DNA of 64,000 bases, taken from assembly GCA_013298695.1 (NCBI GenBank), contig JAAFIS010000005.1:186001-250000 (forward strand), given 5' to 3'. The first letter of the stretch is position 1. Every line of letters begins with the position of its first letter. The translations under genes and the position numbers were made by a program. The notes below the pieces were generated by a model. That model was not told the origin of the DNA and made no database searches. It worked only from the letters and a program-made list of their open reading frames with translations. Positions 6,930 through 60,048 of the stretch are shown here, piece after piece. This DNA comes from Betaproteobacteria bacterium. Lineage in GTDB: Bacteria > Pseudomonadota > Gammaproteobacteria > Burkholderiales > Casimicrobiaceae.

Positions 6930-7020
6930 GCTTTATCGGCCTGTTTCATTGGGCGGCATGGGTGATTGTTGAACGTAGCGAAACAACGTAAAAAATCATC
7001 TATCGCCCAATTAATTGGGA
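6930..7020. repeat. Paired-dyad 3'-end repeat, copy 1
   Basis: Right dyad CCCAATTAATTGGG (7006-7019) is a perfect palindrome preceded by TATCG. A degenerate left dyad (TATCGGCC ... CATTGGGCGG, about 6931-6956) lies about 45 nt away. It sits between the convergent ends of udh and the ferredoxin gene, within 25 nt of each stop codon. Confidence 0.6.
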
Positions 7021-7041
7021 CTTTACGCGCCATAGCCAGCG

Positions 7042-7368
7042 TTACGAATTGTCGAGATTTACAAACACTTGGCTCGCCTCGATTTTCACCGGATATACGC
7101 GAATGTTTTCGCTCGCAGGAGCGCACGTCGCGTGTCCGGTGCGCACATCGAACTTGCCTTGATGGAGCGGGCACTCAATCTCGTAGCCATCAAGAAAACC
7201 ATCGCAGAGACGTGCGTTGCCGTGTGTGCAAACGCCATCAGTCGCAAACACTTCTCCGTTCACACGAAAAAGCGCAATTTCACGATCAGGCAGATCGACG
7301 CCAAGCGTCATTTCGTCTTCTGAGATGTCGAATTCAACAGCAACTTCGGTCCAGTTTTCAGTGCTCAT
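7042..7368 (-). CDS. Rieske-type ferredoxin of a ring-hydroxylating oxygenase
   Basis: Small electron carrier of 108 aa that passes electrons from a reductase to the terminal oxygenase. The Rieske [2Fe-2S] ligands are plain: CTHG near residue 46 and CPLHQG near residue 65, in the C-x-H ... C-x2-H pattern. It follows the oxygenase beta-subunit gene with a 4-bp ATGA overlap, so it is co-translated with it. By context it corresponds to the NagAb-type ferredoxin used by salicylate 5-hydroxylase. No partner reductase is encoded in the window, so the reductase must come from elsewhere. Confidence 0.9.
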   Translation of the reverse strand: MSTENWTEVAVEFDISEDEMTLGVDLPDREIALFRVNGEVFATDGVCTHGNARLCDGFLDGYEIECPLHQGKFDVRTGHATCAPASENIRVYPVKIEASQVFVNLDNS

Positions 7369-7847
7369 ATCGGATAAATAATTGAGTTAGGAATCATTTC
7401 ACTATCGTAGACGCAAATGCGTTTTGCAAGCCGCAGACCCTCGCTCGTGCGCACGATGGAATCGACGTAGCGCCCGACGTTAAACACCGTAGAAAGCTCG
7501 GAGAGTTTCGTGCGAATCACCACGTAATTCGCTTCGCATTCAATGCGGTCAGCGGTTGCCGAGATGATGTTTGGCGCACTCACGACGTGGCGCTGATAGT
7601 ACGGGTCGTGAAACAGCGTTTCTCGAATACCGTACGCACGATCCTTGAGCATGCCTTTGCTCTCTAGCGAGAGCGTCGCGAGCGGAAAACCGCGCTCGTA
7701 GTTTTCTCGCGGCTGAATTCGATAGATACAGTCGTCAACAAATAGCTCCGTCCAGCGATCCCAATCATTGGCATCGACCGCGCTCGCATACGCCGCGTGA
7801 AGCTGAGTGATTGCGAGGTAGGTTTCAAAGTCAATCGCGCTCTTCAT
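7365..7847 (-). CDS. nagH: Ring-hydroxylating oxygenase beta subunit, probable salicylate 5-hydroxylase small subunit
   Basis: A 160-aa structural subunit with the cone-like SnoaL/NTF2 fold of oxygenase beta subunits. It starts with the family-like stretch around residues 10-40 (HAAYASAVDANDWDRWTELF) and later has the usual RYVDSIVRT segment and a C-terminal YDSEMIPNSIIYPI. It overlaps the alpha-subunit gene by four bases (ATGA) at its start and the ferredoxin gene by four at its end, a tight three-gene unit. Specificity as the salicylate 5-hydroxylase small subunit is inferred from the alpha subunit. Confidence 0.87.
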   Translation of the reverse strand: MKSAIDFETYLAITQLHAAYASAVDANDWDRWTELFVDDCIYRIQPRENYERGFPLATLSLESKGMLKDRAYGIRETLFHDPYYQRHVVSAPNIISATADRIECEANYVVIRTKLSELSTVFNVGRYVDSIVRTSEGLRLAKRICVYDSEMIPNSIIYPI

Positions 7848-9109
7848 TGCTGCATCACCTTACGCCAATAGGCGTACATGCCCCGTATGAGCGTTTCTGT
7901 GACCATGTGATCGGTATCGCCGACGTCGCGACCGCCGAGCTCCGCAAGTGCGCGATGCTCTGGTTTTTGCTCAAAGCCTTTCTGCGATAACTCGATTACC
8001 TCGCCATCGTCGGCGGAAACAAAACCTGCGGGGCCGAACAGATTTGATTGCCTTAAACGGCGCTCAGTCATCTCTGGCGTGTCATCCTCATAACCGAAAT
8101 GCGTCCACACGAAATCGAATTCACCGTTGCCGCGTGGTTGAATATGTCGCGTAGAAACGCTGTTCACTTGCTGCTGCAAAATTACACTAGGGAAGAGGGT
8201 TGTCATCACAGCCGTTGGACCGTTCCACCAAGTTTCGGGAACGATGTCTAAGAAACGCGGATCGTGCAGCTTCATGCTTTCTTTGAAACTCGACACTTTG
8301 CTCACATCGTTTGCCGCTTGCGCATTGCCACGCTCAGAAATCATCGATGCGTGGCGAAAGTGTTTATCCATCTTGAGCGCTGATTTATTGTCAGCGCGCC
8401 ACAGACCAAACGTGACGAACCACGTATGAAGTAAGCCCGGGTGATACGGATCCTTGATATTTTCCTGCATCAGCTTCCAATTGCCCGGAATACGCTGACG
8501 GTTGTAGCCAAGAATTTTCAACTTTCGACCATCGAACATACGATCAAAGTAATGCAGGATCGTTTCGCCTACAAAATTCTCGAACGATTCCATCGCGTGA
8601 TCGAAAGTGGCAAACACGACACCGCCGCGCGTGGCGACACGAAGTTTGGTCAATCCGTTTTCTTCTGTTTTGAAATCCGCCGGCATCCCGCCATTGACTT
8701 TGCCATCTTGTTTCACGCCGCGACGAAACGGCACGCCTTGGAGATCACCTTTCAGCGTGTAGCTCCACTGGTGATACGGGCACACAAATTCCTTTTTGTT
8801 GCCATGTCGCTCGCGACAAAACTGCATGCCGCGATGCGCACACACATTTTCAAACACATGTACTGAGCCATCGTCTGCTCGAGACATCACTACCGAGCGC
8901 TCGCCAATCGCCGTTCGTTTGAAATCTCCCACGTTCGGAATCTCCGCTTCAAGTCCGACGTAGCACCAATGATTCCTATAAAAAAAGGCATCGAGCTCGC
9001 GTTGATGCAGCTCGGCGTCGGTGTACACGCGAAATGGAATGCGGCTTGTGCCTTCGCTGTTCCATGGCGTGTTTTCACGGCGCTGAATCGATTCGTTGCC
9101 TATGTTCAT
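7844..9109 (-). CDS. nagG: Rieske oxygenase alpha subunit, probable salicylate 5-hydroxylase large subunit
   Basis: Terminal oxygenase subunit of 421 aa. The Rieske cluster ligands are CAHRG and CPYHQW (about residues 90-112, spaced C-x-H-x17-C-x2-H). The mononuclear iron site is DPYHPGLLH (D-x2-H-x4-H) near residue 220. Long stretches, for example IPNVGDFKRT, GVPFRRGVKQDGKVNGGMP, RIPGNWKLMQENIKDPYHPG and TDHMVTETLIRGMY, agree with what I remember of NagG from Ralstonia U2. That enzyme converts salicylate to gentisate. Relatives acting on anthranilate or other benzoates cannot be excluded. It is divergent from a NahR-like regulator. Confidence 0.85.
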   Translation of the reverse strand: MNIGNESIQRRENTPWNSEGTSRIPFRVYTDAELHQRELDAFFYRNHWCYVGLEAEIPNVGDFKRTAIGERSVVMSRADDGSVHVFENVCAHRGMQFCRERHGNKKEFVCPYHQWSYTLKGDLQGVPFRRGVKQDGKVNGGMPADFKTEENGLTKLRVATRGGVVFATFDHAMESFENFVGETILHYFDRMFDGRKLKILGYNRQRIPGNWKLMQENIKDPYHPGLLHTWFVTFGLWRADNKSALKMDKHFRHASMISERGNAQAANDVSKVSSFKESMKLHDPRFLDIVPETWWNGPTAVMTTLFPSVILQQQVNSVSTRHIQPRGNGEFDFVWTHFGYEDDTPEMTERRLRQSNLFGPAGFVSADDGEVIELSQKGFEQKPEHRALAELGGRDVGDTDHMVTETLIRGMYAYWRKVMQQ

Positions 9110-9177
9110 GATGGTTAGGTTAAGTGTTGAATCGGTTAGTTTAGATATAAACTGATGTAATTGAATTAATGATTACC

Positions 9178-9192
9178 ATTCACAACGTGAAT
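9178..9192. promoter_or_regulatory. LysR-type operator (perfect T-N11-A dyad)
   Basis: ATTCACAACGTGAAT is a perfect 15-bp palindrome in the nagG/lysR divergent region. It resembles the left half of NahR sites (ATTCAC...). It ends eight bases before the regulator ATG, so it overlaps the regulator's leader, which fits autoregulation together with control of the divergent hydroxylase promoter. Confidence 0.6.
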
Positions 9193-9200
9193 AACAGGAT

Positions 9201-10112: not shown

Positions 10113-10160
10113 GTGCGTTGTGGTCGGCTTGAATACACGGTTGTTTAAGCGTTTGATCTG

Positions 10161-12821: not shown

Positions 12822-12900
12822 GTAATTTCTCCGCTCTAGTGAACGTAATTTGGCAACCATTCCCGCCGCGCAACACGAAGTTTTCGTGGATTTGCATTCG

Positions 12901-13476: not shown

Positions 13477-13654
13477 GCGCCGTCTCCCCCCGGAAAGATG
13501 ACGTTTGAACGAGATTGTTCGTCATGGATGTTAAGCGCTAACGTTCTGGCGATCACGATGCGACGCGGCATCGCATTGATGAAGAACGTGGATATGTTGC
13601 AACCTTGCGAGTGAGCGGCGTGCGTGGTCGGTTACAGACACACCTTTCTAGCTA

Positions 13655-13745
13655 ATAGCCCAATTTAATTGGGCTATAGCGTTTATTGTTGCTAATATTG
13701 AGAACAAAATAAAAATACGTCATAGCCCATTAAATTTGGGTTAAT
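13655..13745. repeat. Paired-dyad 3'-end repeat, copy 2
   Basis: Left dyad is a perfect 23-bp palindrome (13655-13677) with core AGCCCAATTTAATTGGGCT. Right dyad CATAGCCCATTAAATTTGGG spans 13721-13740 and is imperfect. The 43-nt spacer starts AGCGTTTATTGTTGCTAATA. It lies 31 nt beyond the stop of the RCC1 gene. Nothing else is seen in the 299-bp gap before the sigma gene. Confidence 0.75.
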
Positions 13746-13775
13746 ACTTATAAAGTTGAAAGAAATTGCTTGAGG

Positions 13776-16160: not shown

Positions 16161-16207
16161 AGCGCACCCCACATTGATTCGACTGATACGCCATAAACGC
16201 ATTTTTT

Positions 16208-16279
16208 GGCAAATCCCGCCAAATGAGCGTTTTTTTGTCGTCCAAACCTGGGCACCAACGAAATTGGCGGATTTTGCGG
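16208..16279. promoter_or_regulatory. Inverted repeats in the divergent promoter of the RCC1 and beta-helix genes
   Basis: GGCAAATCCCGCCAAAT (16208-16224) and ATTGGCGGATTTTGC (16263-16277) are near-perfect inverted copies whose centres lie about 54 bp apart between the two divergent starts. The arrangement fits a shared operator for a dimeric regulator, or an extended hairpin. No regulator is assigned. Confidence 0.4.
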
Positions 16280-16355
16280 TCGAAATCCGTTTATGTGAGA
16301 TCAAGCAGCGCGGATGCCCTCCATTCGCGCGCTAATACCGAAAGGAAACGATTTC

Positions 16356-17300: not shown

Positions 17301-18971
17301 CTAGCGGGCTACTGCCATTCCACAGTCCTTGCTCAGGAACTCTTGAATGCGCTCCCAGCCTCGGGTTGCGCCGGCGCCAAGCGCGCCGGCAACCACCGCG
17401 TCACCGCGCACTCCGGCAGCAATGCGCGCCAGGATCAGACCATCTGTCGTCGCGAGCACTTTGCCGTCGCCGTCAATATCCATGTTGCAAGCGCCGCCGC
17501 GTGGATACGCCCACTCGACGCGCGCTAGGCACGGAGTTCGCACACCATTGACGCCGCAGGAGCCAAATACTGTGAAGTAATAAGTTCCCGTGTATTCGCG
17601 GATCAAGGCGCCTGCGCCTACGTTGGTCGTCGGCGTAACGTCCTGCGCATCAAGACCTAGGGTGTTGCGAAAACTTGGCAGCCGCTTGTCGTCGCTGCCA
17701 TTCCCAGAAACTAGCGCCATGCACGCGCGGTTAGGTCCGGTGGTACCCAAGCATTCGCCAAATAGTGCGAGCGCTCCGTCGGGCTGTAGAAACGCGGTGC
17801 CACTCGTTATCCGATTCTGCCCGTTTGCGATCGGATTGATGAATCGTTTCCCACCGTCACCAAACGCCGTGTCCAGCGCCGCCGTCCATGGCAAAAGTTG
17901 TATCGCGCAGAAGGCGTAGCGAAATGGATTGCCCGCATCGGTTCGACAACTTCCAACCAGCAGCGCGTATCCGTCGGGGCGCAGCAATATTTGCGTCGCG
18001 ATATCTTCAACACCGGCAACCGAGAATCGCTGCCAACCGTTGCTGGCGTAATTGGTGTCCGGTGTGCCGTTCGCGTTCAATCGCGCGACACAGAACTCGT
18101 ACACGCCATTTTCTTGGCAGCGCCCGGCAACCCACGTTTTTTCTGTAGCTGGATCGAGAGCGATCGAGGTGAGAACGTACCCACTGTTCGCAGCAACTGC
18201 GCCAAACGCTATGACGCGCGGTTGTCCAGCGTTAAAGGATAGATCCGCGTTTCCGTTGGCAAGCAATCGCCCAACGCAGCCGTGCACAATGCTGGTCGGG
18301 TAACACTCGGCGACGTAGGTGACGCGGCCGTCGACGCCAAGCTCTACGTCATTCACTCTCGCGCCACCCAGCGTGAGTTTTCCGCTCGTACCAAAACTTG
18401 CGTCGCGACTCCCGCTTGCAAGATATTTAATGATGCATGCGCTACCTCCACATCCGCCGAAGGCAAACCAGCCGTCGTTCGGAGCGGCGCGCACGCCCAT
18501 CAGCAAATCTTGCGAAGCGCTGAGTTCAATCACGCTGCCGCTGTTAGACGTTCCCCAAGTTTGATCGATGCTGCCAAAGACGTTTAACTTTGTGAAACAC
18601 CAATCGAGCTGGCTTTGCGCGTTACAGTTAGTCGCAACAACTAAGCTCCCATTTTGATACTGGATGATTCCGCTCACCTCAGTGGTGGCTGAGTTCCCGA
18701 CGGTGAATTGCGACTTACCGCCCACACCCCAAGCTCGCAAATCACCGACATCGGCGCGAGCTTCAGTTGGCGCCAAAAGCGCTGCGAACAGAATTAAGCA
18801 ATGCAGAAACACGCCGCCGATCAGACCTACCCAAACGGCAGTGTCTACGTCCACATAGTCCCAAAAACTACGGACGATGGAGCGTTTTGGTGCTAAATAC
18901 GATGTTTTGCATAATGCATCTCGTCGCCCAATAAAAACGGGCACATAGTCGCCTTTCTGTACACGACTCAT
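17301..18971 (-). CDS. Secreted delta-60-repeat beta-propeller protein with dockerin-like tail
   Basis: Protein of up to 556 aa with repeats of the delta-60 type (LNANGTPDTNYASNGWQRF, LPWTAALDTAFGDGGKRF and others), predicted to form a beta-propeller outside the cytoplasm. Cysteines are frequent and look paired. The last 62 residues carry the tail seen in both RCC1 proteins: NMDIDGDGKVLATTD, LILARIAAG and a final CGM. The ATG at 18971 overlaps the hemerythrin stop (ATGA), but the signal peptide core then starts only near residue 46, and residues 9-40 are encoded by a paired-dyad repeat. A GTG at 18854 is an alternative start, though its N-terminus would lack positive charge. Confidence 0.75.
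   Translation of the reverse strand: MSRVQKGDYVPVFIGRRDALCKTSYLAPKRSIVRSFWDYVDVDTAVWVGLIGGVFLHCLILFAALLAPTEARADVGDLRAWGVGGKSQFTVGNSATTEVSGIIQYQNGSLVVATNCNAQSQLDWCFTKLNVFGSIDQTWGTSNSGSVIELSASQDLLMGVRAAPNDGWFAFGGCGGSACIIKYLASGSRDASFGTSGKLTLGGARVNDVELGVDGRVTYVAECYPTSIVHGCVGRLLANGNADLSFNAGQPRVIAFGAVAANSGYVLTSIALDPATEKTWVAGRCQENGVYEFCVARLNANGTPDTNYASNGWQRFSVAGVEDIATQILLRPDGYALLVGSCRTDAGNPFRYAFCAIQLLPWTAALDTAFGDGGKRFINPIANGQNRITSGTAFLQPDGALALFGECLGTTGPNRACMALVSGNGSDDKRLPSFRNTLGLDAQDVTPTTNVGAGALIREYTGTYYFTVFGSCGVNGVRTPCLARVEWAYPRGGACNMDIDGDGKVLATTDGLILARIAAGVRGDAVVAGALGAGATRGWERIQEFLSKDCGMAVAR
18854..18948. repeat. Paired-dyad 3'-end repeat, copy 3 (inside annotated N-terminus)
   Basis: Dyad TCGCCCAATAAAAACGGGC (18924-18942) lies 25-50 nt past the hemerythrin stop. 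A second dyad with GTCCCAAAAACTACGGAC (18859-18876) is about 45 nt away. The spacer has AGCGTTTTGGTGCTAAATAC, close to the spacer of copy 2 (AGCGTTTATTGTTGCTAATA). It overlaps the first 40 codons of the delta-60 frame. Confidence 0.6.
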
Positions 18972-21733: not shown

Positions 21734-22098
21734 TATCGTGTGGCTGTGCAAAATTTCTGCATAGAGAGAGGCGATTCACGTCGAATCGCGAGGTTTGCTC
21801 GACGACAGATTTTATTTTCTCCAGAGTAATCAATCGGTTACGTCAGTTCTTGATCAATGGCCGAAATCCTGACCCGCGTGTCTCAGTACGGACCCGGCTT
21901 CGCGGAGTGACTTTCTTTTGATCGAGAGGCGCTTGCTTAAAGCGCGACTTGCCCGCGAAAAGATGGGAGCCTATAACAGCAACAATGCGCGTTTAAGCAC
22001 AATTCAATCGGGCAAACGTACGAATTAAGTAATCGATCAATATCTATATTTTCTACTAATATTACCCAGCTAAATTGGGCGTCTACACTCAGAGGCCA
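21734..22098. other. Gene-free stretch between vapBC promoter and LuxR gene end
   Basis: No credible gene. About 21858-21920 reads CCGAAATCCTGACCCGCG ... GAGTGACTTTCTTTTG. Its end resembles dispersed intergenic sequence I know from betaproteobacteria (AAAGAAAGTCACTC in reverse). A paired-dyad repeat occupies 21998-22083. Confidence 0.4.
21998..22083. repeat. Paired-dyad 3'-end repeat, copy 4
   Basis: Right dyad TTACCCAGCTAAATTGGGC (22062-22080) starts 16 nt after the LuxR gene stop in the transcript sense. Degenerate left dyad GCACAATTCAATCGGGC is at 21997-22013. The 48-nt spacer is AT-rich and includes ATCAATATCTATATTTTC. Confidence 0.6.
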
Positions 22099-24882
22099 CT
22101 AGCCAAGCAACTCCCGAAACTTCGCCGCCGCTTGCCCGCGTGAGTCGGCGTTTAGTTTGCCTAGGATGTTGGCGACGTGGCGTTTTACCGTGTGCGGAGA
22201 GAGGTCGAGGCGGCGGGCGATGATTTTGTTGCTTTCGCCTGCGGCGATGAGCGAGAGCACTTCCATTTCGCGCGGGCTAATTAAACCTGTCGCTTCGTGG
22301 GCGATCTCCGAGGCGTACGATTGGTGACCTACTTTCGTGGCGTCAACAGGTTTTGCTAGATCAAGAGAGTGCGTTTCAGCGAGATCGCTTCTAGCGTCGT
22401 CGAGCCGCGCAGCGCGCGGGCTTGCGCGATTGCCTGCTTGCGCTGTTGCTTGATGATCATGCTTGGCCGAGGATTGTGTCGAAGGCAGCCATCTCTGTAC
22501 CGCGAGGAGGGTTTCGCGCTCGTCCTCGCTGTAGTGTCGCGTGAATTCCGGTTGCGATATCGCGATGATGGCGCTTGCGCCTGCGAAGCGTGCGGAGAGC
22601 GGGTAGCCGCGCGCGCGAATGGTTGCAAGCGCCTCTTTAGCTAGCGAAATCGCTTGTTGCGATGCACCGGAGGCGAGCTCAATCTTTGCGAGCAGAAGGC
22701 GCGTTGCCGTTGTCATTCCATGGGCGTCGTTGCGACCGTACTGCGCGAGCACTCGTGCGAAGCAGCCGCGAGCGTCGCCGTAGCGCTGATCGAGCATTGC
22801 TTCGATGCCAATGATGGCGGTTGCTGGCCCTTTCAAGCGTTCCGCCTCATCAGCGGTCAGCGTCGCGCGGATAGATTCGATGGCACGACGCGCAATGTCT
22901 TCACGATCGGCAATCAGTGCGGCGCGCAACTCGATCCAATAGAAATACCAGCTTGCCATACCTTTTGACCCGTAGGTGCGGATCACGTGTTCAGCGATGC
23001 GTCGCATCTCTTCGCTGGCAACATCGATCTCGCCTTGCAATGTGCGGCACAACAGATAGGGCACATGCGTGTAGAAACAAACGTTCATCGGATGATTGAT
23101 CCACGCCGCGATGGAGACGGCTTCCTCCAGCATTGCGCGCGCATGATCGAGCTCGCCGCGCCAGAGTCCCATCGCGCCACGCAAACCCATCGCAACTGCG
23201 CGCAGCGTTGGGTAGTCTTCGCCTGCAATACCGAGCGCACCGCTTGAATAGCGGCTGATCAGCGGTTCGAGTTCGCGCAGCCCAAGGTAGCCGGCGGCGG
23301 GCAATAGTTGCAACCACAGCGAAGGATCATCAACTTTTGGCACTTGTGCCAGCGCTTCGTTGTAGCGCGCATTGGCTTCGCGAAAGTTTGCGGTGTCAAA
23401 TGCGCGCGTGGCGTGTTTAAGCAACACGATTGCGCGCGTGCGCGGATCGATCGTGTCTTCTAGCGCTACGTCATAACGCTCATCAAAGCGAATCTCGCCA
23501 ATCGGCGCGTAGTTAGCGAGCGCGAGGCTCACATACGACTTAGCGAGTTGTTGACGTGCTGCGTCGCCGCTTTTTTCGCTATTGATGAGCGCAGTTTTCA
23601 TCTCCTCGATCATGAGCCGAATATTCATCGATTCCCAGGCCATTAGGCCGCGAAGAATCGCGAGATCAGTAGATGTCTCGCTAATTGATTTCGGGAAACG
23701 TTTGAGCATCGCGCGGGCGAGACTAGATTGCCCGGCGGCCATCAAGCGCGGTGCGGAGTGCGCATACTCGGCGACCGCGCTCTCGTAGTCTTCGCTTGCG
23801 ATTAAGTATTCGATGCGGCGCGTTGCGTCGGGTTCGCTCTCAGCTGCGCGTTTCCAGAGTGCGCGCTGCGCTTCGGGCGGGAGTTTCTCACGCGATTGCG
23901 CGAGTGCTTCGCGGAAAATGTCGTGGAGTCGTAACGCTCGTTCCTGACTCTCGACCTGTTGAAAGAAAAGGCCGCGACGTTCAATCTCGTCGAGGCAAGC
24001 GTCAGAATCGTTTCGTCCGGTCACAGCCGCTGTACGGGGCGCGGTGAGTTCCGGCAGCACGGAAGATTGGATAAGAAACGATTGCAAGTCACTTGGCAAA
24101 TGTGCGAGCACTTCGCTTTGCAAATACTCGATCGCATGGCGCTCACTGCGCACCAGCGAACCTTTGGATTCAGAGCTGAGCGCCAGTGCGACGCCGACCG
24201 CCCAGCCATCGGTGCGCGCTAGCACGTCCTCGATCGATGCTGTCTTGCCTCCTTGCTTTGCGAGCTCATTAATGTCGCTGGTCTGAAAACGTAAATCATC
24301 GTGGCGTATTTCGACTAACTCTTTAGCAAGACGCAATCGAACGAGTGACCAAGGCGGATCTTCGCGCGACACAATAGCGAAACCCCAGTTATCGGGCATT
24401 GATTCGAGCAGGGACGGGATGAATTGCAAAAGCGTGTCATCGTTGAGGCGATGGAAATCGTCAAGCACAATCACACCGCGGTTTCCATCGGTTGCCGAGA
24501 GTGCGTTTACAAGGGCGTCGTGAAAGACGCGTTGGCCCTCGGAGCTGTCGAGCGCTGCAACCAGTGCTTCGGGCGAGCTTCGCCACGGCGGATCGAAGGG
24601 GTCAAGAGCCGCGACGACTGCGTTTGCGAAGCGTCCTAACGTGTCGCTCGCATCACAGCCGATCCAGACCGAGCGAAGTGTTGCGGCGTTTGCCGAAAGC
24701 GTTTGCACAACCGCACAGGTTTTGCCAAAGCCACCCGGAGCGGAGAGTAGAGTGAGGCGGGCATACAAAAGTCCTTCGCCGATTCGTTCAATCAATTCGC
24801 TGCGCGCAATCAATCCAGCGCGCAATCTCGGCGGCTGGATTTTTGTTCGAGCGAATGAGAGCGTTTCTGTGGAAGCGGACAT
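22099..24882 (-). CDS. MalT-type (LAL) ATP-dependent LuxR-family transcriptional regulator
   Basis: Large activator of 927 aa. The Walker A motif APGGFGKT is at residues 48-55 and Walker B VIVLDDFH near 140, forming the STAND-type ATPase. A long helical TPR-like middle (about 330-830) would bind an inducer. The LuxR helix-turn-helix is at the C-terminus (about 865-927: ISPREMEVLSLIAAGESNKIIARRLDLSPHTVKRHVANIL). The family usually controls nearby catabolic operons, but here neighbours (vapBC, DUF2817) do not suggest a target. A paired-dyad repeat follows its stop. Confidence 0.9.
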   Translation of the reverse strand: MSASTETLSFARTKIQPPRLRAGLIARSELIERIGEGLLYARLTLLSAPGGFGKTCAVVQTLSANAATLRSVWIGCDASDTLGRFANAVVAALDPFDPPWRSSPEALVAALDSSEGQRVFHDALVNALSATDGNRGVIVLDDFHRLNDDTLLQFIPSLLESMPDNWGFAIVSREDPPWSLVRLRLAKELVEIRHDDLRFQTSDINELAKQGGKTASIEDVLARTDGWAVGVALALSSESKGSLVRSERHAIEYLQSEVLAHLPSDLQSFLIQSSVLPELTAPRTAAVTGRNDSDACLDEIERRGLFFQQVESQERALRLHDIFREALAQSREKLPPEAQRALWKRAAESEPDATRRIEYLIASEDYESAVAEYAHSAPRLMAAGQSSLARAMLKRFPKSISETSTDLAILRGLMAWESMNIRLMIEEMKTALINSEKSGDAARQQLAKSYVSLALANYAPIGEIRFDERYDVALEDTIDPRTRAIVLLKHATRAFDTANFREANARYNEALAQVPKVDDPSLWLQLLPAAGYLGLRELEPLISRYSSGALGIAGEDYPTLRAVAMGLRGAMGLWRGELDHARAMLEEAVSIAAWINHPMNVCFYTHVPYLLCRTLQGEIDVASEEMRRIAEHVIRTYGSKGMASWYFYWIELRAALIADREDIARRAIESIRATLTADEAERLKGPATAIIGIEAMLDQRYGDARGCFARVLAQYGRNDAHGMTTATRLLLAKIELASGASQQAISLAKEALATIRARGYPLSARFAGASAIIAISQPEFTRHYSEDERETLLAVQRWLPSTQSSAKHDHQATAQAGNRASPRAARLDDARSDLAETHSLDLAKPVDATKVGHQSYASEIAHEATGLISPREMEVLSLIAAGESNKIIARRLDLSPHTVKRHVANILGKLNADSRGQAAAKFRELLG

Positions 24883-26168: not shown

Positions 26169-26212
26169 GGTTGGAAGTTTTTGTGTGTGTACAGATTAAC
26201 AGAACAATAAAT

Positions 26213-26303
26213 AATCGCCATTAAAATTGGGGCTATACAGGTAAATATAGGCTAGTCAACAAGTTAAAAGAAATGCGGTATCGCCCAATTAATTTGGGCG
26301 GGA
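26213..26303. repeat. Paired-dyad 3'-end repeat, copy 5
   Basis: Right dyad TCGCCCAATTAATTTGGGCG (26281-26300) begins 17 nt past the stop of the glutamine-synthetase-like gene in the transcript sense. Left dyad ATCGCCATTAAAATTGGGGC is at 26214-26233. The AT-rich spacer is about 45 nt. Confidence 0.7.
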
Positions 26304-26316
26304 AAGAGAAGTGCTA

Positions 26317-27621
26317 CTAATACTTATCGGCATATTGCGCCCATTCCCAATCGTGAACCGTTTGCTGAAAGAGAGTGATCTCATCACGCCGTGTCGCCAC
26401 ATGCTGTGCGCAAATGTGTGCGCCAATCGCCTCGGTTAGCGCGGTATCTTTTTCAAGCGCGACTAATGCATCGCCTAGCGTCTGCGGCAAGCGACGCAGT
26501 GACGCGACGGCAGCCGCGTAGTTATCCGATTCATTGGGATCACCTGGCGAGCTAGAGCTTAAGATCCCGTCGATAAACGCGTGAATTACTGCCGCAAGCG
26601 AGAGGTAAATATTGCACGTCGGATCGGGCACTCGCCACTCAATACGCCCAGCCGTGACGCGGGCGGGGAGCGTGCGATTGTTGGTTCCCCAACCGATGTC
26701 GACGGGTGCCCAGGTGGTTCCTGACTGGGAACCGCCGCCGGTGAGGCGTTTGTACGAATTGATCGTGGGCGCGTGAAACGCGGTCAGCGCGGCGGCATGA
26801 TGCAACAAGCCGCCGAGCGCGCTGAGCCCGAGTGGTGAGAGCGTGCCATCACCGCGGTCAAACACGGCGCTGCCTTCAGCGTTCGCGAATGACAAATGGA
26901 AATGCAATCCGCTTCCGGGCCGATCAGCAAACGGCTTTGCCATGCCGCTGTAGACGAGACCATGCTTTTCCGCGATGGCATGCGCAGCGAGTTTGAATCG
27001 AACTAGATTGTCTGCACTCGCTAAGGCTTCGGTGTATTTGAAATTTACTTCGTACTGCGCGGGCGCGTCTTCATGATCAATTTGAATGACGTCGAGTCCG
27101 TATTGGTTGAGCGCTACTTCGAGTTCGCGCAGGCAATCGAACACACGTCCGCGCTGCAGTGATTTCAAATCGTAAGAGGGCTTCGCGAGCCGATCAAGCG
27201 TGTCAGGCACCACGAGTTTTCCTTGTTGATTGCGTTCAAACAAGAAGAACTCTGGCTCAATGCCGACGTTGAGGGTGTAGCCCAGCGCGCTAAGTTTTTT
27301 CGTTGCGCGTTTGAGCGTTTGTCGGGAACAACCGTCGAACACTTCACCTGCAACAAAGCCATCGCAAATCACGTGCAAAGTGTCACGTTGCCAAGGCAAC
27401 ACGCGCGCTGTGGCTGTATCAGCGCGTCCGAAAAACTCAGAGCGTGCGCCATGGCGCGGCAGCCCCGTGCCTTCAATCGACGGGCCGGCGAATCCCGCGC
27501 CGACAGAAACTACCTCGTCCCAGTGCGCGCGCGGGACGATTTTGCCCTTCGCAACGCCATTGATGTCAACAAACTGCGCGAGGATTAAGCGGACGTCGTC
27601 ACCGACGTTCGGAAAACTCAT
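26317..27621 (-). CDS. Glutamine-synthetase-family ligase (GlnT/PuuA-like)
   Basis: ATP-dependent gamma-glutamyl ligase of 434 aa. The N-terminal beta-grasp segment is short (DINGVAKGKIVP), and the catalytic domain shows NVGIEPEFFLF, DHEDAPAQYEVNF, GSGLHFHLSF, the RLTGGGSQSGTTWAP stretch and RIEWRVPDPTCN. It lacks the adenylylation-type C-terminus of GlnA. In this setting it probably glutamylates an amine such as a polyamine or ethanolamine rather than ammonia (inference). The ATG at 27621 overlaps the aldehyde dehydrogenase stop by four bases (ATGA) and is preferred to the ATG at 27642. It is distinct in sequence from puuA at 36460. Confidence 0.85.
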   Translation of the reverse strand: MSFPNVGDDVRLILAQFVDINGVAKGKIVPRAHWDEVVSVGAGFAGPSIEGTGLPRHGARSEFFGRADTATARVLPWQRDTLHVICDGFVAGEVFDGCSRQTLKRATKKLSALGYTLNVGIEPEFFLFERNQQGKLVVPDTLDRLAKPSYDLKSLQRGRVFDCLRELEVALNQYGLDVIQIDHEDAPAQYEVNFKYTEALASADNLVRFKLAAHAIAEKHGLVYSGMAKPFADRPGSGLHFHLSFANAEGSAVFDRGDGTLSPLGLSALGGLLHHAAALTAFHAPTINSYKRLTGGGSQSGTTWAPVDIGWGTNNRTLPARVTAGRIEWRVPDPTCNIYLSLAAVIHAFIDGILSSSSPGDPNESDNYAAAVASLRRLPQTLGDALVALEKDTALTEAIGAHICAQHVATRRDEITLFQQTVHDWEWAQYADKY

Positions 27622-38765: not shown

Positions 38766-38937
38766 GGGATGCAGAGCTTTTTTTGCGGCGCCAAGCGAAA
38801 AACACTGATTTGTCGAGTCGCGTCAATCTCGTCGATTGTGCCATGCCAGAGCTCTCTGAAGCTAATGCTGAAGGCGAATAAACACGGGTTTTTCAGGTGC
38901 GAAGCGGCGTTCACAACAAAATAGAATATTCAATGTA

Positions 38938-39022
38938 AGTCCAATTTTATTGGGCTATAGACTAAATTAATTAAATAGTTGAGTTATGCCGAGAATTAGT
39001 ACATCGCCCAATTGAATGTGCG
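38938..39022. repeat. Paired-dyad 3'-end repeat, copy 6
   Basis: Left dyad GTCCAATTTTATTGGGC (38939-38955) and right dyad ATCGCCCAATTGAATGTGCG (39003-39022) flank an AT-rich spacer of about 47 nt. The right dyad begins 57 nt past the xseA stop in the transcript sense. Confidence 0.65.
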
Positions 39023-39078
39023 TTTGAACTCTATAGCTAAGTTAAAGCGACGAGCGTTGTTGCACACGCAAAACCTCG

Positions 39079-43481: not shown

Positions 43482-43901
43482 ATGAACTTCCGCCGAGGTC
43501 GTTTCCGCGAAGAACCTGAGATCAATTTCATTCCGTTGATCGACGTGCTGCTGGTGATACTCATTTTTTTGATGGCATCGACTACGTACAGCAAGTTCAC
43601 CGAACTCAAAATCACGCTGCCCGAGGCCGAAGCTGAAAAGCAGGCGCAACGCCCGAAGGAAATTCAGGTTGGTGTGGATGACAAGGGTCGTTTTGCGGTG
43701 AACCAACAGGTGTTTAACTTCACCGGCGTGCCGTCGCTTGCCGAGGCAATGAAAGCTGCTGCAGCCGGTGCCACCGATCCGGTGATCATCATCAACGCCG
43801 ATGCCAACGCGAAACACCAAGACGTGGTGTATGTGATGGAGGCAGCGCGCGCCGCGAACTTCCCAAACATTACCTTCGCCACGCAAACGCCTTCAAAATA
43901 G
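43482..43901 (+). CDS. exbD: ExbD/TolR-family biopolymer transport protein
   Basis: Single-helix inner-membrane protein of 139 aa. The N-terminus INFIPLIDVLLVILIFLMAST contains the functional aspartate in IPLIDVLLV that takes part in proton transfer. The rest is the periplasmic domain (ITLPEAEAEKQ ... VVYVMEAARAANFPNITFAT). It energises TonB-dependent transport together with ExbB. Its stop codon overlaps a paired-dyad repeat. Confidence 0.93.
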   Translation: MNFRRGRFREEPEINFIPLIDVLLVILIFLMASTTYSKFTELKITLPEAEAEKQAQRPKEIQVGVDDKGRFAVNQQVFNFTGVPSLAEAMKAAAAGATDPVIIINADANAKHQDVVYVMEAARAANFPNITFATQTPSK

Positions 43902-43976
43902 GGCGATGACCTGCTTTTAGTGATTAAGCGTTAATAAGAAGAAACTGCTTTGCCGCCCGACAAAATTGGGCGATCG
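43889..43976. repeat. Paired-dyad 3'-end repeat, copy 7
   Basis: Left arm GCCTTCAAAATAGGGCGATG (43889-43908) spans the exbD stop codon. Right dyad GCCGCCCGACAAAATTGGGC (43952-43971) lies 43 nt further. The spacer includes TTAAGCGTTAATAAG. Confidence 0.6.
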
Positions 43977-44007
43977 AGGGGATGGCTACGAACGGACTTA
44001 TCCGCCT

Positions 44008-46958: not shown

Positions 46959-46988
46959 AAAAAAAGCCTGCGAATGCAGGCTTTTTTT
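46959..46988. terminator. Strong bidirectional rho-independent terminator
   Basis: A perfect stem GCCTGC/GCAGGC with a four-base loop is flanked by seven A on the left and seven T on the right. It ends the plus-strand transcript of the zinc-ribbon gene and can also end the minus-strand receptor gene transcript. Confidence 0.9.
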
Positions 46989-48276: not shown

Positions 48277-49719
48277 CTAGTTTTCCTCGCTCGGCGCTAA
48301 CGGTTCACAGCGTGGTTGCCATCGAAGCGCGTTAACCCAAGGGACTTGCACAGCCACTTCATAATCGGTCGCGACGCCCAGTAGAGCAACAACGCGCTCG
48401 CCGGTTACGACCACCGGCCATCCTTCTCGGTGCCACGTGGGGACGTTGTGATGTTGAAACAAATTTTTCAGCGAAACGCCGCCGGAATTGGGCGATAGAC
48501 GTATCGCATCAGCTTCTCGACGAACCCGCATTGCCAACGTATCGCCCAATAAAAGCCCGCGTAGAGCAGGTGAGTTGTTCGGCACTTTGTCGAGCGCGCT
48601 CTCTGCGGTTTCGCGCGCACGTTGAAGCGAGATTGTGCCGTGACTTAAGGCGAGCGGTAACGCGTGAAGATCGAGCTTGAGCGTGCCCGTTTGTATTCTG
48701 CGATCGACGCGAATTTCGCTCGGAAAAACATAGTGAATGTGGTCGCGGAAACAGCGCAGCGTGCCGCGCATCGAGTGATGCGCAATGACGATGTGTTGAT
48801 CGTCGGATTCAATCGAGAGTTGCTCGATCCATTCGCGCATCCGCGCTGCGTCCTGCGCAGGTTCGCCGTGCGCTGCGAGCCATGTACGCACTAGATTCGC
48901 ACGGCGGGCTGGGGACAGCGTACGAAACACGGTTCGTTGGAGTTTCCCGCCGTCGGCGCAGGCTTCGAGGTCAATCTCCGCGAGCTCGTTGAGTAGTGAT
49001 GCAGCGTCGGCTTGTAGTGACGCCGCGCGCGCGAGCGTTTTCTCTGCAGATGGAAACGCGTGGGTAAGGCTCGGCCAAACATTTAGACGTAGACGGTTTC
49101 TTGCGAAGCGTGTTGACGCGTTGCTCTCGTCTTCGATGAATGCAAGCGAATGGTGCGCGGCGTAAGCATCAATGGATTGCTTCGAAACGTGCAAAAACGG
49201 CCGCGTAAATTCAGCACCGTGCTCAGCCATTGCCGACAATCCAGCAGGCCCCGCGCCTCGGAGCAGCTGCAGAAGCACCGTTTCGGCTTGGTCGCGCGCG
49301 TGGTGCGCCGTCGCGACCACGAAGCGTTCGCCGAGCGCACCGCGAAGCTCTGCTGCGTGTGCACGGATCGCCGCATACCGCGCGTGTCTTGCCGCTGCCT
49401 CAATGCCAATGCCCGAGGAGAGATCGACTTGAACTCTCGCCACTTTCAGTGCAATGCCAAGTGCAGAGCAAACAGTTTCACAGTGTTGCGCCCAGGTATC
49501 GGCGTTTGGGCTCAAACCATGGCTAACATGAATCGCGGTAACGATAGGCTCGCTAGCAACGTTTCGCTTTTTTTCTACGTTAGCCCAATAAACTAGGGCG
49601 TGAAGCAATACTGTTGAGTCAACACCCCCCGAGAACGCAACGCAAACGCGGTCCGCCCGACGAAACAACTGTGTTGCCGCGACTGCAATGTCATCTGTGC
49701 GAGGTTTGAGCGGATTCAC
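48277..49719 (-). CDS. tilS: tRNA(Ile)-lysidine synthase
   Basis: Enzyme of 480 aa that converts C34 of the AUA-decoding tRNA to lysidine. The PP-loop is FSGGVDSTVLLHAL near residue 29. HVSHGLSPNAD, TAHHARDQAETVLLQLLRGAGP and RNRLRLNVWP are characteristic. The C-terminal TilC part has IRLSPNSGGVSLKNLFQ. Within that part lies a perfect 11-bp inverted repeat with the same core as the paired dyads. The gene is downstream of accA on the same strand, a common pairing. Confidence 0.94.
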   Translation of the reverse strand: MNPLKPRTDDIAVAATQLFRRADRVCVAFSGGVDSTVLLHALVYWANVEKKRNVASEPIVTAIHVSHGLSPNADTWAQHCETVCSALGIALKVARVQVDLSSGIGIEAAARHARYAAIRAHAAELRGALGERFVVATAHHARDQAETVLLQLLRGAGPAGLSAMAEHGAEFTRPFLHVSKQSIDAYAAHHSLAFIEDESNASTRFARNRLRLNVWPSLTHAFPSAEKTLARAASLQADAASLLNELAEIDLEACADGGKLQRTVFRTLSPARRANLVRTWLAAHGEPAQDAARMREWIEQLSIESDDQHIVIAHHSMRGTLRCFRDHIHYVFPSEIRVDRRIQTGTLKLDLHALPLALSHGTISLQRARETAESALDKVPNNSPALRGLLLGDTLAMRVRREADAIRLSPNSGGVSLKNLFQHHNVPTWHREGWPVVVTGERVVALLGVATDYEVAVQVPWVNALRWQPRCEPLAPSEEN

Positions 49720-50718: not shown

Positions 50719-50792
50719 AGGACGAATTCTAGAGTGCCCGCACGATTCAGATTTTTCTGGCGCTGTCTCGCAACCTTGTGACTCGTTCGAGG

Positions 50793-51155: not shown

Positions 51156-51296
51156 GTCGGTCTTTCGCAGAACGCTTGAATTGCGCGCAATATGCCAGAA
51201 GCGTCAGGCGCTAAAAACTAATGCGGTTAAATGCAAGCCAAAACGAGGCGGAAACCAGTATTTATTCAATATTGATATTTATAAGAAATACCCACA

Positions 51297-51352
51297 AAGC
51301 CCAATTAAATCGGGATTTTTACGATTAAGTTACTGATTAATTTTGGGCATGC
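51297..51352. repeat. Paired-dyad 3'-end repeat, copy 8 (irregular)
   Basis: Dyad AGCCCAATTAAATCGGGAT (51298-51316) and a half-dyad TTAATTTTGGGC (51337-51348). A further degenerate dyad GCCAAAACGAGGCGG (51238-51252) lies 45 nt to the left across a spacer with TTCAATATTGATATTTATA. It is downstream of the ompA-family gene on the minus strand, beyond its terminator. Confidence 0.5.
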
Positions 51353-51389
51353 TCCGACCCTTCGGTTTTCGGATACGGCGGACAACAAA

Positions 51390-51409
51390 AAACCCGCCGG
51401 AGCGGGTTT
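51390..51409 (-). terminator. Rho-independent terminator of the ompA-family gene
   Basis: AAACCCGC/GCGGGTTT stem with loop CGGA; on the minus strand the stem is followed by a T run. It lies 25 nt after the stop at 51434. Confidence 0.9.
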
Positions 51410-51433
51410 CTTGCGAACGAATCGAGCCGACGA

Positions 51434-52192: not shown

Positions 52193-52493
52193 TGATTTAG
52201 TACCCCTTTAGGCATTTCGGACGATGTCACAGAGACTTTGTCCACGTTGCGCTGCAGCGCGCGTGGCTACAAAATCCCCTCCAGTGCCAATATATCACCG
52301 TGCTTTTTGCAGGCGCAATTCTGAATCCGGGCTGTGTCACGCAGCGAAATATCTGTGGTGTGGGCGCAACGATCAACTGAACTAAAATCCAGTAGCGCCG
52401 CGAGACAGCTGTCCGCGGCTTTTTGTCGTTATATGACTACAACGCAATGCCGCGCAGCGGTTGTTGCGGCATGTTCAAGGTTTGCCAGAGTCA
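52193..52493. other. Divergent promoter region of the ompA-family gene and gyrA
   Basis: No gene. It must hold promoters in both directions. TAAAAT (about 52384) could be a gyrA -10, but I see no convincing -35. Confidence 0.4.
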
Positions 52494-55070
52494 ATGGATC
52501 AATTCGCAAAAGAAACCCTCCCAATTAGCCTTGAGAGCGAAATGCGCTCTTCCTACCTCGATTACGCGATGAGCGTGATCGTTGGCCGCGCGCTGCCCGA
52601 TGTGCGCGATGGTTTGAAGCCGGTGCATCGCCGCGTGCTCTACGGAATGCACGAAACCAACAACGTGCACAACCGCCCGTATGTGAAGTGCGCGCGGGTG
52701 GTCGGCGAGGTCATGGGTAAGTTTCATCCACACGGCGACGCCTCGATTTATGACACTTTGGTGCGGATGGCGCAGCCTTTTTCGCTGCGCTACACCTTGG
52801 TTGACGGCCAAGGTAACTTCGGCTCGGTTGACGGCGACAACGCCGCCGCGATGCGCTATACCGAGTGCAGACTGCAAAAGATCACCGCGGAAATGCTCGG
52901 CGATCTGGAGAAAGAAACCGTCGATTTCCAGCCGAATTACGACGGCAAGGAAATGGAGCCCACCGTATTGCCGGCCAGATTCCCCAATCTGCTGGTTAAC
53001 GGCGCATCCGGCATTGCAGTTGGCATGGCGACCAACATTCCGCCGCACAACCTGTCGGACATTATTGACGCTACGCAGCTCTTACTCAAGAACGGCGAGG
53101 CGACGATCGAAGAATTGATTGAAATCGTAAAAGCCCCGGATTTCCCCACTGGCGGCTATATCTATGGGCTAGAAGGCGTTCACAACGGTTATCGCACCGG
53201 TCGCGGGCGCGTGGTCATGCGAGCGCGAACCCATTTTGAGCCGATCGGTAAGTCGGATCGTCAGGCAATCATCGTTGATGAGATTCCGTATCAAGTCAAC
53301 AAGTCCACGTTGCTGCAAAAGATCGGAGAACTCGTCCGCGATAAGCGCCTAGAAGGCATTTCCGATTTGCGCGATGAGTCTGATAAATCGGGCATGCGCG
53401 TCGTTATAGAACTCAAGCGCGGCGAAATCCCCGACATCGTTCTCAATAACCTCTACAAAAACACGCAGCTACAAGACAGCTTCGGCATGAACATGGTGGC
53501 GCTGGTCGATCAGCGTCCGCGCGTGTTGAATTTGAAAGACTTCCTCGAGCAGTTTATTCTGCATCGTCGCGAAGTTGTCACGCGTCGCACCCAGTTTGAG
53601 TTGCGCCAAGCACGCTCGCGCGCGCACATCCTTGAAGGTTTGGCGGTTGCGCTCGCAAACGTTGATCCGATCATCGAACTCATTAAAGCTTCAGCCACGC
53701 CAGACGAAGCGCAAACCGCGCTTACGTCAAAGCTCTGGAAATCAGAGCTGGTGAAAGAAATGGTTTCGCGCGCTAACGTGGAATTCTTGCGCCCCGATGA
53801 CGTGACGGCCGATTTCTGTTGGCAGCCGAAAGAGCAGGCGTATCGCCTCACCAACGTGCAAGCCAAAGCCATTCTTGAAATGCGTTTGCAGCGTTTGACA
53901 GCGCTGGAATCTGACAAAGTCATCAGCGAATACAAAGAAGTGATCGCTGCGGTTCAAGACTTGCTCGACATTTTGGATAAGCCTCAACGCGTCACCAAAA
54001 TCATTTCGATCGAACTTGCGGACATCAAAAAAGCATTCGGCGACGGACGCAAATCTGAAATCGTGATGAACGCAGAAGAGACTTCTATCGAGGATCTCAT
54101 CAAGCCGCAAGACATGGTCGTCACGCTCACGCACGGCGGCTATTTCAAAGCGCAACCGGTCGAGGAATATCGCGCGCAGAAACGCGGTGGTCGTGGCAAA
54201 CAAGCGACTGCAACGAAAGAAGAAGATTTCGTTGAGAAGCTATTCATCGCCAACACGCACGACACGATCATGTGTTTCTCAAGCCGTGGCCGCGTGTATT
54301 GGTTGAAGGTGTACGAAGTGCCTGAAGGCGGACGCAACTCGCGCGGCAAGCCGATTGTGAATCTGTTCCCGTTGCAAGATCGCGAAAAAATTACTGCGAT
54401 CGTGTCGACCAAAGATTTCGATCCCGAGAAATACATTTTCATGGCGACCAGCATGGGCACCGTGAAGAAAACCTCGCTTGAAGATTTCTCGCGTCCGAAG
54501 AAAACCGGCATCATCGCCGTTGATTTGGATGACGGCGATTATTTGGTGGGCGCAGCGCTTACCGACGGCAAACACGACGTGATGCTCTTCGCTGATAGCG
54601 GCAAAGCAGTCCGCTTTGATGAAAACGATGTGCGCAGCATGGGCCGCAATGCACGCGGTGTTCGCGGCATGATGCTCGACAAAGATCAGCGCATCATCGC
54701 GATGCTCGTTGCTGAAAACGAAGAACAGCAAGTGTTAACCGCCACCGAAAACGGTTACGGCAAACGCACGCCGATCATCGAATACACGAGGCACGGTCGC
54801 GGCACCAAAGGCATGATCGCGATTCAGCAAAGCGCGCGTAACGGCAAAGTGGTCGCCGCAACGCTCGTGCGTAAAGAAGACGAAATCATGCTCATCACCA
54901 CCGGAGGCGTGTTGATTCGCACCACGGTGAAATCAATCCGCGAATCCGGTCGCTCAACGCAGGGCGTGACGCTCATCAACTTGGGCGAGGGTGAAAAACT
55001 CTCCGGCATCGAGCGCATTGACGAGCCTGAGTTGCCTGAAGGCACGGGTGATCAAGCTGAGTTGATTTAA
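52494..55070 (+). CDS. gyrA: DNA gyrase subunit A
   Basis: Type II topoisomerase subunit of 858 aa from the ATG at 52494 (a frame from 52461 is less likely). The winged-helix and tower domain lead with the catalytic tyrosine at 122 in AAAMRYTE. The GyrA-box needed for DNA wrapping is KRGGRGK near residue 565. The six-bladed C-terminal pinwheel follows, ending in an acidic tail. In the quinolone region the sequence is [10 protein letters not shown], so position 83 is alanine (Ser in E. coli, often Thr in relatives), with Asp 87 kept. Confidence 0.97.
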
Positions 55071-55084
55071 TCGACAGCTTTACG

Positions 55085-55180
55085 CCTTATCGCCCAATTG
55101 AATTGGGCGATAAGGAAAATAACGTTTGATATTGAGATACGCAGTGATATGAACGTAGCCCCGATTTGATGGGGCTTTTT
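55085..55180. repeat. Paired-dyad 3'-end repeat, copy 9 (best-formed copy)
   Basis: Left dyad is a perfect 31-bp palindrome (55085-55115) with core CGCCCAATTGAATTGGGCG. The right dyad is the terminator stem below. The 40-nt spacer contains AACGTTTGATATTGAGATAC. It starts 15 nt after the gyrA stop. Confidence 0.8.
55156..55180 (+). terminator. Rho-independent terminator of gyrA (second dyad of repeat copy 9)
   Basis: AGCCCC/GGGGCT stem with an eight-base AT loop, followed by TTTTTTATTTT. Here the repeat's second hairpin acts as a canonical terminator. Confidence 0.85.
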
Positions 55181-55382
55181 TATTTTGGGCTGTTTAGCGT
55201 GCAAACATCCCGCGCGGTCAGCGATGAATCGACGCGCTCAACGAGATCGCAGTTCGCAGTCCCACGGGTCAACGAAAAAACACGCGTTAACGCGCAACGG
55301 CGTTCGCATTGCTGACGCTACCATTCCGCCCGGGGAAAAGAAATTTTCGGCGTGTAGGGACGCCCAATGAGTAGGACTCGCG

Positions 55383-58097: not shown

Positions 58098-58137
58098 GCA
58101 TGAGAGATCGGCGCGCGAATGCGGCGGCAGTTCCGTG

Positions 58138-58243
58138 TATAGCCATTAGTGCAGGACGCCGTTTTCACTGGACGTATTCGCCGTTAACCTGAACTAGCGA
58201 AAAATAGTGAAATACGCTTGATCGCCCAATGAAATAGCTGCTT
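58138..58243. repeat. Paired-dyad 3'-end repeat, copy 10 (degenerate)
   Basis: TATAGCCATTAGTGCAGG (58138-58155) and TTGATCGCCCAATGAAATAG (58219-58238) look like decayed dyads in the 230-bp convergent gap between the DUF5648 and RCC1 genes. Only the second keeps a full half-site. Confidence 0.35.
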
Positions 58244-58327
58244 AGGCTCTAGCGCCAGATACGCGAGATCAGAGCGCGGACGCGAGGCGGCTCACGCCCT
58301 GTTTAATTTTCCCTTCGCTTGATGTTG

Positions 58328-59689: not shown

Positions 59690-59825
59690 TTAGAAGCTCC
59701 TGATTGTGGCGAGACCCACGCAAAATAGGACGGAAAGCACCCGCAGGAACGGACACTTGAGACAAGTATTTAAGGCCGTGTTGACGGTTTGCCGCTTGCA
59801 GACACCGTGCGCCATTCGGCGTTAG

Positions 59826-59940
59826 TCTCTATCGGACGCCCGGTTGTACTCGGGCGGCACAAGCCGATGCAGCGCCACGCGCCTTGCTGCGTTGCTTGAC
59901 CCCGTACGGGCTATTCAGCAGAAGCGCGCAGAAGATAGTG
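59826..59940. repeat. Cluster of GC-rich hairpins upstream of the RCC1 gene
   Basis: CGCCCG/CGGGCG around GTTGTACT (about 59837-59856), then GCAGC/GCTGC around the segment GCCACGCGCCTT, then CCCGTACGGG. It resembles dispersed palindromic DNA of betaproteobacteria. No gene is seen in 59690-60082. Confidence 0.4.
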
Positions 59941-59959
59941 AATAACGTTTATGCAGACG

Positions 59960-60048
59960 TACCGATTTGCAGGGGCTTAAGACGCAAAATGGCAACTTTT
60001 CGATAAACACTGATATACGACTATACGCCCCTCAAAATAGGCGATTTA
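59960..60048. repeat. Paired-dyad 3'-end repeat, copy 11
   Basis: Right dyad TACGCCCCTCAAAATAGGCG (60024-60043) lies 35-60 nt past the aminotransferase stop. Left arm CCGATTTGCAGGGGCTT (59961-59977) resembles half of the gyrA terminator dyad. The spacer of about 45 nt is AT-rich. Confidence 0.5.

Follow-up and report, generated by a model that had tools for sequence, protein, structure and literature searches.

A repeated two-fold symmetric site at gene ends in a genus of Burkholderiales, and its possible role in docking DNA gyrase

Gyrase motifs and repeated palindromes

In Escherichia coli the gyrase motif is 130 bp long and symmetric, with a 10.75-bp phasing of GC content and flanks that lie 17-66 bp out, and the enzyme is enriched downstream of active transcription units (PMC6379681). 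Phasing of GC content at 10-11 bp, together with preferences that are palindromic about the cut, is also described for the gyrases of several species (PMC12324340), and cryo-electron microscopy has provided a wrapped gyrase complex with minor-groove contacts (PMC11626157). The subject here is a family of sites found in 64,000 nucleotides of a betaproteobacterial genome of the Casimicrobiaceae (contig JAAFIS010000005.1, positions 186,001 to 250,000, the whole of this stretch being referred to as the window), where a preliminary description had noted one or two short dyads at each of about eleven loci, mostly just after stop codons. These dyads are the visible portions of a larger, rigid, two-fold symmetric site of 125-140 bp, which invites comparison with the gyrase motif as well as with the repeated palindromes of other bacteria.

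The REPINs of Pseudomonas consist of two palindromes at a fixed distance and in inverted symmetry, and the sites resemble them in having paired palindromes at a fixed spacing. Unlike REPINs they do not form a near-identical population, there being one close pair among 154 copies. With the BIME-2/REP elements of enterobacteria they have in common that they are dispersed extragenic palindromes, but no link of the sites to a RAYT was found, there is hardly any pairing signal, the copies are not related by descent and the palindrome is weak in a second species of the genus (G005). BIME-2 elements are over-represented among gyrase cleavage sites (PMC6379681).

With the E. coli gyrase motif, and with strong gyrase sites such as that of Mu and par of pSC101, the sites share a two-fold pattern of about 130 bp and a phasing of G+C and A+T of about 10 bp, and with gyrase binding in E. 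coli they share their occurrence downstream of transcription units (PMC6379681). In that account the E. coli sites are degenerate and were mapped with trapping drugs, the motif is too long and too degenerate for standard motif finders, and the attraction of gyrase to the region downstream of transcription units, with its build-up behind active operons, is 'not hard-wired' (PMC6379681), whereas the sites described here are encoded as a sequence pattern, with fixed TCGA, GCCC/GGGC and AGCT boxes that are visible by eye. Among the papers listed by the literature searches made, none deals, by title or start of abstract, with a family of GCCCAATT palindromes, and the searches on gyrase with intergenic or convergent sites gave nothing to the point, absence being claimed for these searches only.

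A symmetric site of about 130 bp

The core of the dyad, GCCCAATT-N-AATTGGGC, occurs 13 times in the window when up to 3 mismatches are allowed, against 0.32 expected, and 13 was reached in none of 100 shuffles. The genome to which the window belongs (G000, 4.08 Mb) contains 52 exact cores and no copy of the reversed pattern; among 59 other genomes the exact core is found in three congeners only (3, 4 and 1 copies). In a set of 464 kb, made up of 20 stretches of contig C1 and the window, pairs of cores with up to 4 mismatches and less than 150 nt apart start 67 nt (13 pairs) or 66 nt (2 pairs) from each other, the only other case being a 1-nt self-overlap. The fixed paired layout of the preliminary description is thus upheld, and is in fact rigid, although its distance of 40-50 nt is better given as a spacer of 50 nt between the dyads.

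When paired copies are aligned on their midpoint, a two-fold symmetry larger than the dyads appears around them, with TCGA at the centre (0), the dyad GCCCAATT-N-AATTGGGC at ±33.5, AGCT at ±56, and GCCC/GGGC about 27 and 40 bp either side of the centre. In 150 copies A+T-rich steps lie near 3, 13, 23, 33, 43.5, 53.5, 60.5 and 67.5 bp from the centre and G+C blocks near 18, 26-28, 39-40, 48 and 55 bp, the A+T phasing of about 10 bp extending to about 68 bp on each side, with background composition from about 70 bp. The dyads themselves are commonly imperfect, at least 7 of the 8 arm pairs being present in just 40 of 308. The outer AGCT boxes, the central TCGA and the 10-bp A+T phasing had gone unnoticed in the preliminary description, which took shared spacer words such as ATATTGA and ACGTTT as an argument for common descent; this is not supported, as the words coincide with the TCGA at the centre and with the A+T steps in phase, and the low-information columns are random from copy to copy.

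A symmetric matrix trained on stretches of C1 alone was cross-validated on 464 kb of other stretches of the same genome, the window included, and gave 97 matches of at least 10 bits, against 1 for the reversed control and 0 in second-order Markov sequence. In an 864-kb sample of G000, comprising 40 stretches picked by position and the window, there are 154 sites of at least 16 bits and none in the reversed control, which extrapolates to about 730 sites in the genome. All eleven loci described previously are full symmetric sites, scoring 39-89 bits with a matrix whose training set included the window, and the proposal of a dispersed, non-chance family is supported. The matrices are self-trained and gapless, so sites with insertions or deletions are missed; an early list of 186 hits counts some overlapping loci twice, and later counts use de-duplicated or unbiased stretches.

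Placement relative to genes

Genes were called with a home-made hexamer caller and not by standard annotation. In G000 and G005 together, the centre lies 50-120 bp past the stop in 99 of the 135 stop-adjacent sites, so the edge of the site abuts the stop codon, and the preference for gene 3' ends that had been suggested is confirmed. Among gaps of at least 110 bp in G000, sites occupy 27 of 47 convergent gaps (57%), 66 of 203 tandem gaps and 17 of 71 divergent gaps (24%); in G005 the corresponding counts are 11/20 (55%), 19/79 and 6/38 (16%). Centres fall inside predicted genes for 36 of 154 sites in G000 and for 0 of 36 in G005, at coding fractions of 0.86-0.87.

Conservation within the genus

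Seven metagenome-assembled genomes of uncultured Betaproteobacteria/Burkholderiales encode a GyrA with 86-95% identity to that of G000. A strict symmetric pattern of 14 fixed bases, with 1 mismatch allowed, is found 156, 66, 92, 40 and 44 times in G000, G005, G006, G011 and G013 respectively (controls 0, 0, 2, 1 and 3). Each of the twelve remaining congeners has 0-6 matches (controls 0-2), and 63 genomes from beyond the genus have 0-3 (controls 0-3). A de novo search of G005 gave 36 sites in 400 kb and 0 in the control, with equal architecture and another consensus, its boxes being CAGCTTTT, GGGCT and AAAGTCGACTTT, with a weak and different partial palindrome at the position of the dyad. At 15 bits or more the G000 matrix finds 26 sites in G002 (180 kb) and 12 in G010 (100 kb), with none in the reversed control, and when the G000 and G005 matrices are both used the architecture is found, with a drifted consensus, in 15 of the 17 sampled species of the genus. 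Some of the congener samples are small (G006 43 kb, G003 51 kb, G013 20 kb, G014 15 kb, G001 35 kb), and the evidence for G003 is thin, its two matches scoring 35 and 14 bits and the reversed control having 1.

The two species in which neither matrix found a site are G008 (about 147 kb of unique sequence) and G016 (about 54 kb), whose samples of 150,331 and 60,432 bases overlap internally. They form the sister group of 14 site-bearing species in a GyrA tree rooted on G017, from which G013 is absent and in which three rows are partial proteins. At 73 outgroup gyrA loci (596 kb) there were 0 matches.

Some positions have been kept between species. Behind gyrA there is a site in 10 of the 14 site-bearing species for which that gene was available, a weak one in G012, and a glutamine-synthetase-like gene is followed by one in all 4 close orthologues (G000, G009, G010 and G014, this set being the G000 gene and three matches of at least 71% identity out of a longer list). 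Where G000 has a site, the other species have one at 9 of 13 gyrA loci, 3 of 3 glutamine-synthetase-like loci and 1 of 12 xseA loci, 13 of 28 in total, for comparison with the 24-33% of tandem gaps that are occupied. Site positions are thus shared at two of three gene ends, with gain and loss over time. Agreement between orthologous sites (5 of the 10 gyrA sites being used) is 0.55 and 0.47 in the high-information columns, against 0.53 for random pairs, and 0.27 in the low-information columns, against 0.26. As the orthologous and cross-species sites were found by matrix, their agreement in high-information columns is partly selection; free of selection are the randomness of the low-information columns and the repeated presence of sites at the same gene ends, the other sequence having saturated.

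The full-site patterns of G000 and G005 both gave 0 matches in viral contigs; the exact dyad is present in 8 viral stretches, and the matrices show no site at those dyads. Two of the viral contigs, L270 and L275, share low-scoring matches to the matrices (8-16 bits) in mirrored positions that do not coincide with their exact dyad.

DNA gyrase as the possible binder

Each locus may be a docking site for a two-fold DNA-wrapping complex, most likely DNA gyrase (GyrA2GyrB2), a reading to which we give a probability of roughly 0.5. That a protein binds, and that it is gyrase, we infer from wrap length, symmetry, phasing and placement, all of which fit; an even axis, two-fold symmetry, phasing of about 10 bp and different boxes at different distances would suit a two-fold enzyme whose core is flanked by a pair of wrapping arms, of which DNA gyrase is the known example. 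The G-segment would lie over the TCGA centre, while the phased arms on either side, at about 20-62 bp from it, would be wrapped by the C-terminal domains of GyrA, their A+T-rich minor grooves turned towards the protein, and in G000 the GCCCAATT-N-AATTGGGC palindrome would act as the strongest contact block of each arm and not as a hairpin. Such sites could hold gyrase where positive supercoils accumulate, at the ends of transcription units. The sites of both G000 and G005 have the symmetry of about 130 bp with G+C phased at 10-11 bp that is seen in the gyrase motif, and they lie downstream of transcription units as is expected for it.

Within the genus GyrA has a comparatively constrained wrapping domain, in that the divergence of the C-terminal domain over that of the N-terminal domain is 0.50 (21 pairs), against 0.76 for 1020 outgroup pairs of like N-terminal divergence, these figures being ratios of means over non-independent pairs. 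At the strong gyrase site of Mu the right arm agrees with a detrended A+T template of the sites, with a window-max p of 0.002 for the G000 template, 0.014 for G005 and 0.004 for their mean, and the best half-site at Mu ranks 10 of 73274, although this rank and the other best figures overstate the support, having come from trials with several templates, arms and offsets.

A number of observations weigh against gyrase. The published central preferences are -4G/+8C and -2A/+6T, with +1G/+4C in the presence of quinolones (PMC12324340), and none of these is seen in G000 (C 0.15 at +8, T 0.24 at +6), while G005 shows only -2A/+6T (T 0.72 at +6, C 0.16 at +8) and position +4 is mostly A in both. The sites are consequently not filed as members of the gyrase motif, and that they work like a gyrase site is the leading inference. 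At Mu, a shift of 3 or 5 bp leaves the fit of the templates much the same, so that there is no phase specificity, the left arm is poor (0.10-0.22 of half-sites score as well), and the full site within 6 bp of the cut ranks 354 (G000) or 1323 (G005) of 36558; in pSC101 the top matches track A+T richness, with no clear signal at the position expected for par. When G008 is compared with the genus the ratio of domain divergences is low as well, 0.56 where outgroup pairs of that divergence give 0.88, although no sites were found in G008. The contrast between gaps that bear a 3' end and divergent gaps is modest (Fisher p 0.047 in G000, 0.13 in G005), and the two rRNA ends considered differ, with a site 473 bp beyond one and none within 1.5 kb of the other. 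The strict pattern is near control in most of the other congeners (G001 4 vs 1, G003 0 vs 0, G007 1 vs 2, G012 0 vs 2), and xseA has a site within 100 bp at just 2 of 13 loci (13 of 14 loci being considered, with the fragment L268 omitted). Finally, E. coli is described as having no such strong sites, and in vitro its gyrase was slowed by a site of consensus sequence (PMC6379681).

The same site could instead be bound by some other clade-specific two-fold wrapping or architectural complex, which at the ends of genes would set up chromosome domains or anchor loops, and this has to be taken as a serious possibility though not as the expected one. Gyrase is universal, yet sites occur only in part of a single genus, in 15 of its 17 sampled species, and were found neither in G008 and G016 nor at the outgroup loci, and the departure of the site centre from the known preferences of gyrase points the same way. 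Against such a complex, no candidate protein emerged, and a stand-alone gene for a gyrase C-terminal domain was not found in G000, where all 6 matches to PF03989 lie within gyrA. A homo-oligomer that reads one repeated motif, for which the Lrp-type wrappers are the comparison, is spoken against by the different sequences at 0, 33 and 56 bp.

Should gyrase be the binder, a wider picture can be offered, more tentatively, in which the genus is hard-wired with some 400-700 gyrase docking sites at transcription-unit ends, a fixed grid for the relief of supercoiling that would have arisen after the split from G008/G016, with a consensus that drifts between species along with its binder. An array of sequence-specific wrap sites, shared at the level of the genus and set at transcription-unit ends, is a better reading than that of the preliminary description. 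If this is true, a genus whose wrap signature can be read from sequence alone would make it possible to test directly by what features DNA is recognised by gyrase or a similar wrapping machine and how docking sites shape supercoil domains, and the co-evolution of wrapping protein and sites could be traced, as there are species with a different consensus and two relatives in which no sites were found.

RNA hairpins and mobile palindromes

The preliminary description had proposed two other explanations, which are less well placed. The dyads could be a tandem-hairpin element of the RNA 3' end, acting as terminator or RNA stabiliser, which would account for sites just beyond stop codons and, at gyrA, for the T-run behind the second dyad (55159-55175). 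There is also a small excess of pairing in G000, with 4.15 of 8 pairs against 4.05 when whole arms are shuffled (p 0.04) and 1.32 of the 4 pairs beyond the core against 1.18 (p 0.004). This excess is, however, slight, partners in the dyad pairing little or no more often than independent columns would, and in G005 there is none (3.25 vs 3.13, p 0.13), at least 7 of 8 pairs being present in 2 of 72 dyads, yet the remaining architecture is kept. A T-run (at least 6 T in 10 nt) follows the arm end in 10 of 308 cases, and the stem-loop and T-run of an intrinsic terminator do not describe the family. The gyrA copy, which the preliminary description took to end in a true terminator, is an exception, and its second dyad could double as an intrinsic terminator. 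The symmetry moreover spans 130 bp, including the TCGA centre and outer AGCT, and sites are present in divergent gaps and, in G000, in gene interiors. The RNA hairpin pair was rejected as the main constraint, pairing being barely above chance, and an RNA element is an improbable explanation of the family.

That the sites are REPIN- or MITE-like palindromes moved by a RAYT or other transposase is the least probable reading, and a very unlikely one: the copies are many, dispersed, mostly intergenic and paired, and occupancy varies among species at some gene ends such as xseA, but across 154 copies the median pairwise identity is 0.41, equal to that of column-permuted copies (0.408), low-information columns are random both between copies and between orthologous sites, several species are occupied at the same gene ends, and the lone RAYT-type gene sits among a different REP. 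The upper tail of identity is slightly raised, with a 99.9 percentile of 0.56 against 0.515-0.523 and a second-best pair at 0.61 against permuted maxima of 0.54-0.57, and a single pair is 0.92 identical (L061:392 and L065:101, near the starts of contigs C16 and C17). This last pair perhaps marks a duplicated stretch that broke the assembly. The sole match to PF01797 in G000 is a Y1 transposase gene of RAYT type on the minus strand (G000:C1:100270-100635, L018:270-635), surrounded by the REP family GTGGGCAC..GTGCCCAC, the strict form of which has 5 matches in 864 kb; in the assembled sequence, and among genes that PF01797 detects, no cognate RAYT flanked by the palindromes of the sites was found.

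A RAYT-mobilised REPIN was rejected on the setting of this gene and on the near absence of excess identity between copies, and a MITE on low identity and on positions shared among species, target duplications not having been searched for. Pairing near chance, identity near that of permuted copies and a RAYT within another family together argue against hairpins, REPINs and other mobile copies. Pairs of palindromes at gene ends may thus be neither REPs nor RNA hairpins, and tests of covariation and descent can tell these apart.

Sites in the window

By the gene calls the site at 6918..7041 (centre 6980, 70.1 bits, dyads 6938-6954 and 7005-7021, locus 6930 of the preliminary description) falls in a convergent gap, and that at 58137..58260 (centre 58199, 50.8 bits) lies between convergent genes for a DUF5648 protein and an RCC1-repeat protein. 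Four sites follow genes on the minus strand: 13638..13761 (centre 13700, 89.2 bits, dyads 13658-13674 and 13725-13741, earlier locus 13655) is 76 bp beyond the stop of an RCC1-repeat gene, 18839..18962 (centre 18901, 39.0 bits, earlier locus 18854) is 67 bp beyond a stop, 21977..22100 (centre 22039, 53.6 bits) is 60 bp beyond that of a LuxR-type regulator gene and 59940..60063 (centre 60002, 53.5 bits) is 81 bp beyond that of an aminotransferase gene. The site at 26196..26319 (centre 26258, 60.0 bits) is 59 bp past the stop of the glutamine-synthetase-like gene, that at 38919..39042 (centre 38981, 79.0 bits) is 98 bp past xseA, which encodes the exonuclease VII large subunit, and that at 55072..55195 (centre 55134, 73.8 bits) is 64 bp past gyrA. 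The gyrA gene itself, that of the proposed binder, is at 52461..55070 on the plus strand, and the box in its wrapping domain reads QKRGGRGK, which we take to be the GyrA box.

Two other sites are those at 43868..43991 (centre 43930, 59.0 bits, earlier locus 43889) and 51212..51335 (centre 51274, 61.2 bits, earlier locus 51297). The site at 48457..48580 (centre 48519, 43.4 bits) is within a predicted gene and was absent from the preliminary description. A weak candidate is present at 3144..3267 (centre 3206, 30.1 bits), and further matches of at least 10 bits are centred on 36700 (20.7 bits), within a predicted gene, and on 38915 (19.8 bits), where the match overlaps the site centred on 38981.

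Two RCC1-repeat (beta-propeller) proteins are encoded in these 64 kb, at 13776-16304 and 58328-59689. At 46959-46988 there is a perfect 13-nt inverted repeat, AAAAAAAGCCTGC/GCAGGCTTTTTTT, which is likely to be a bidirectional terminator.

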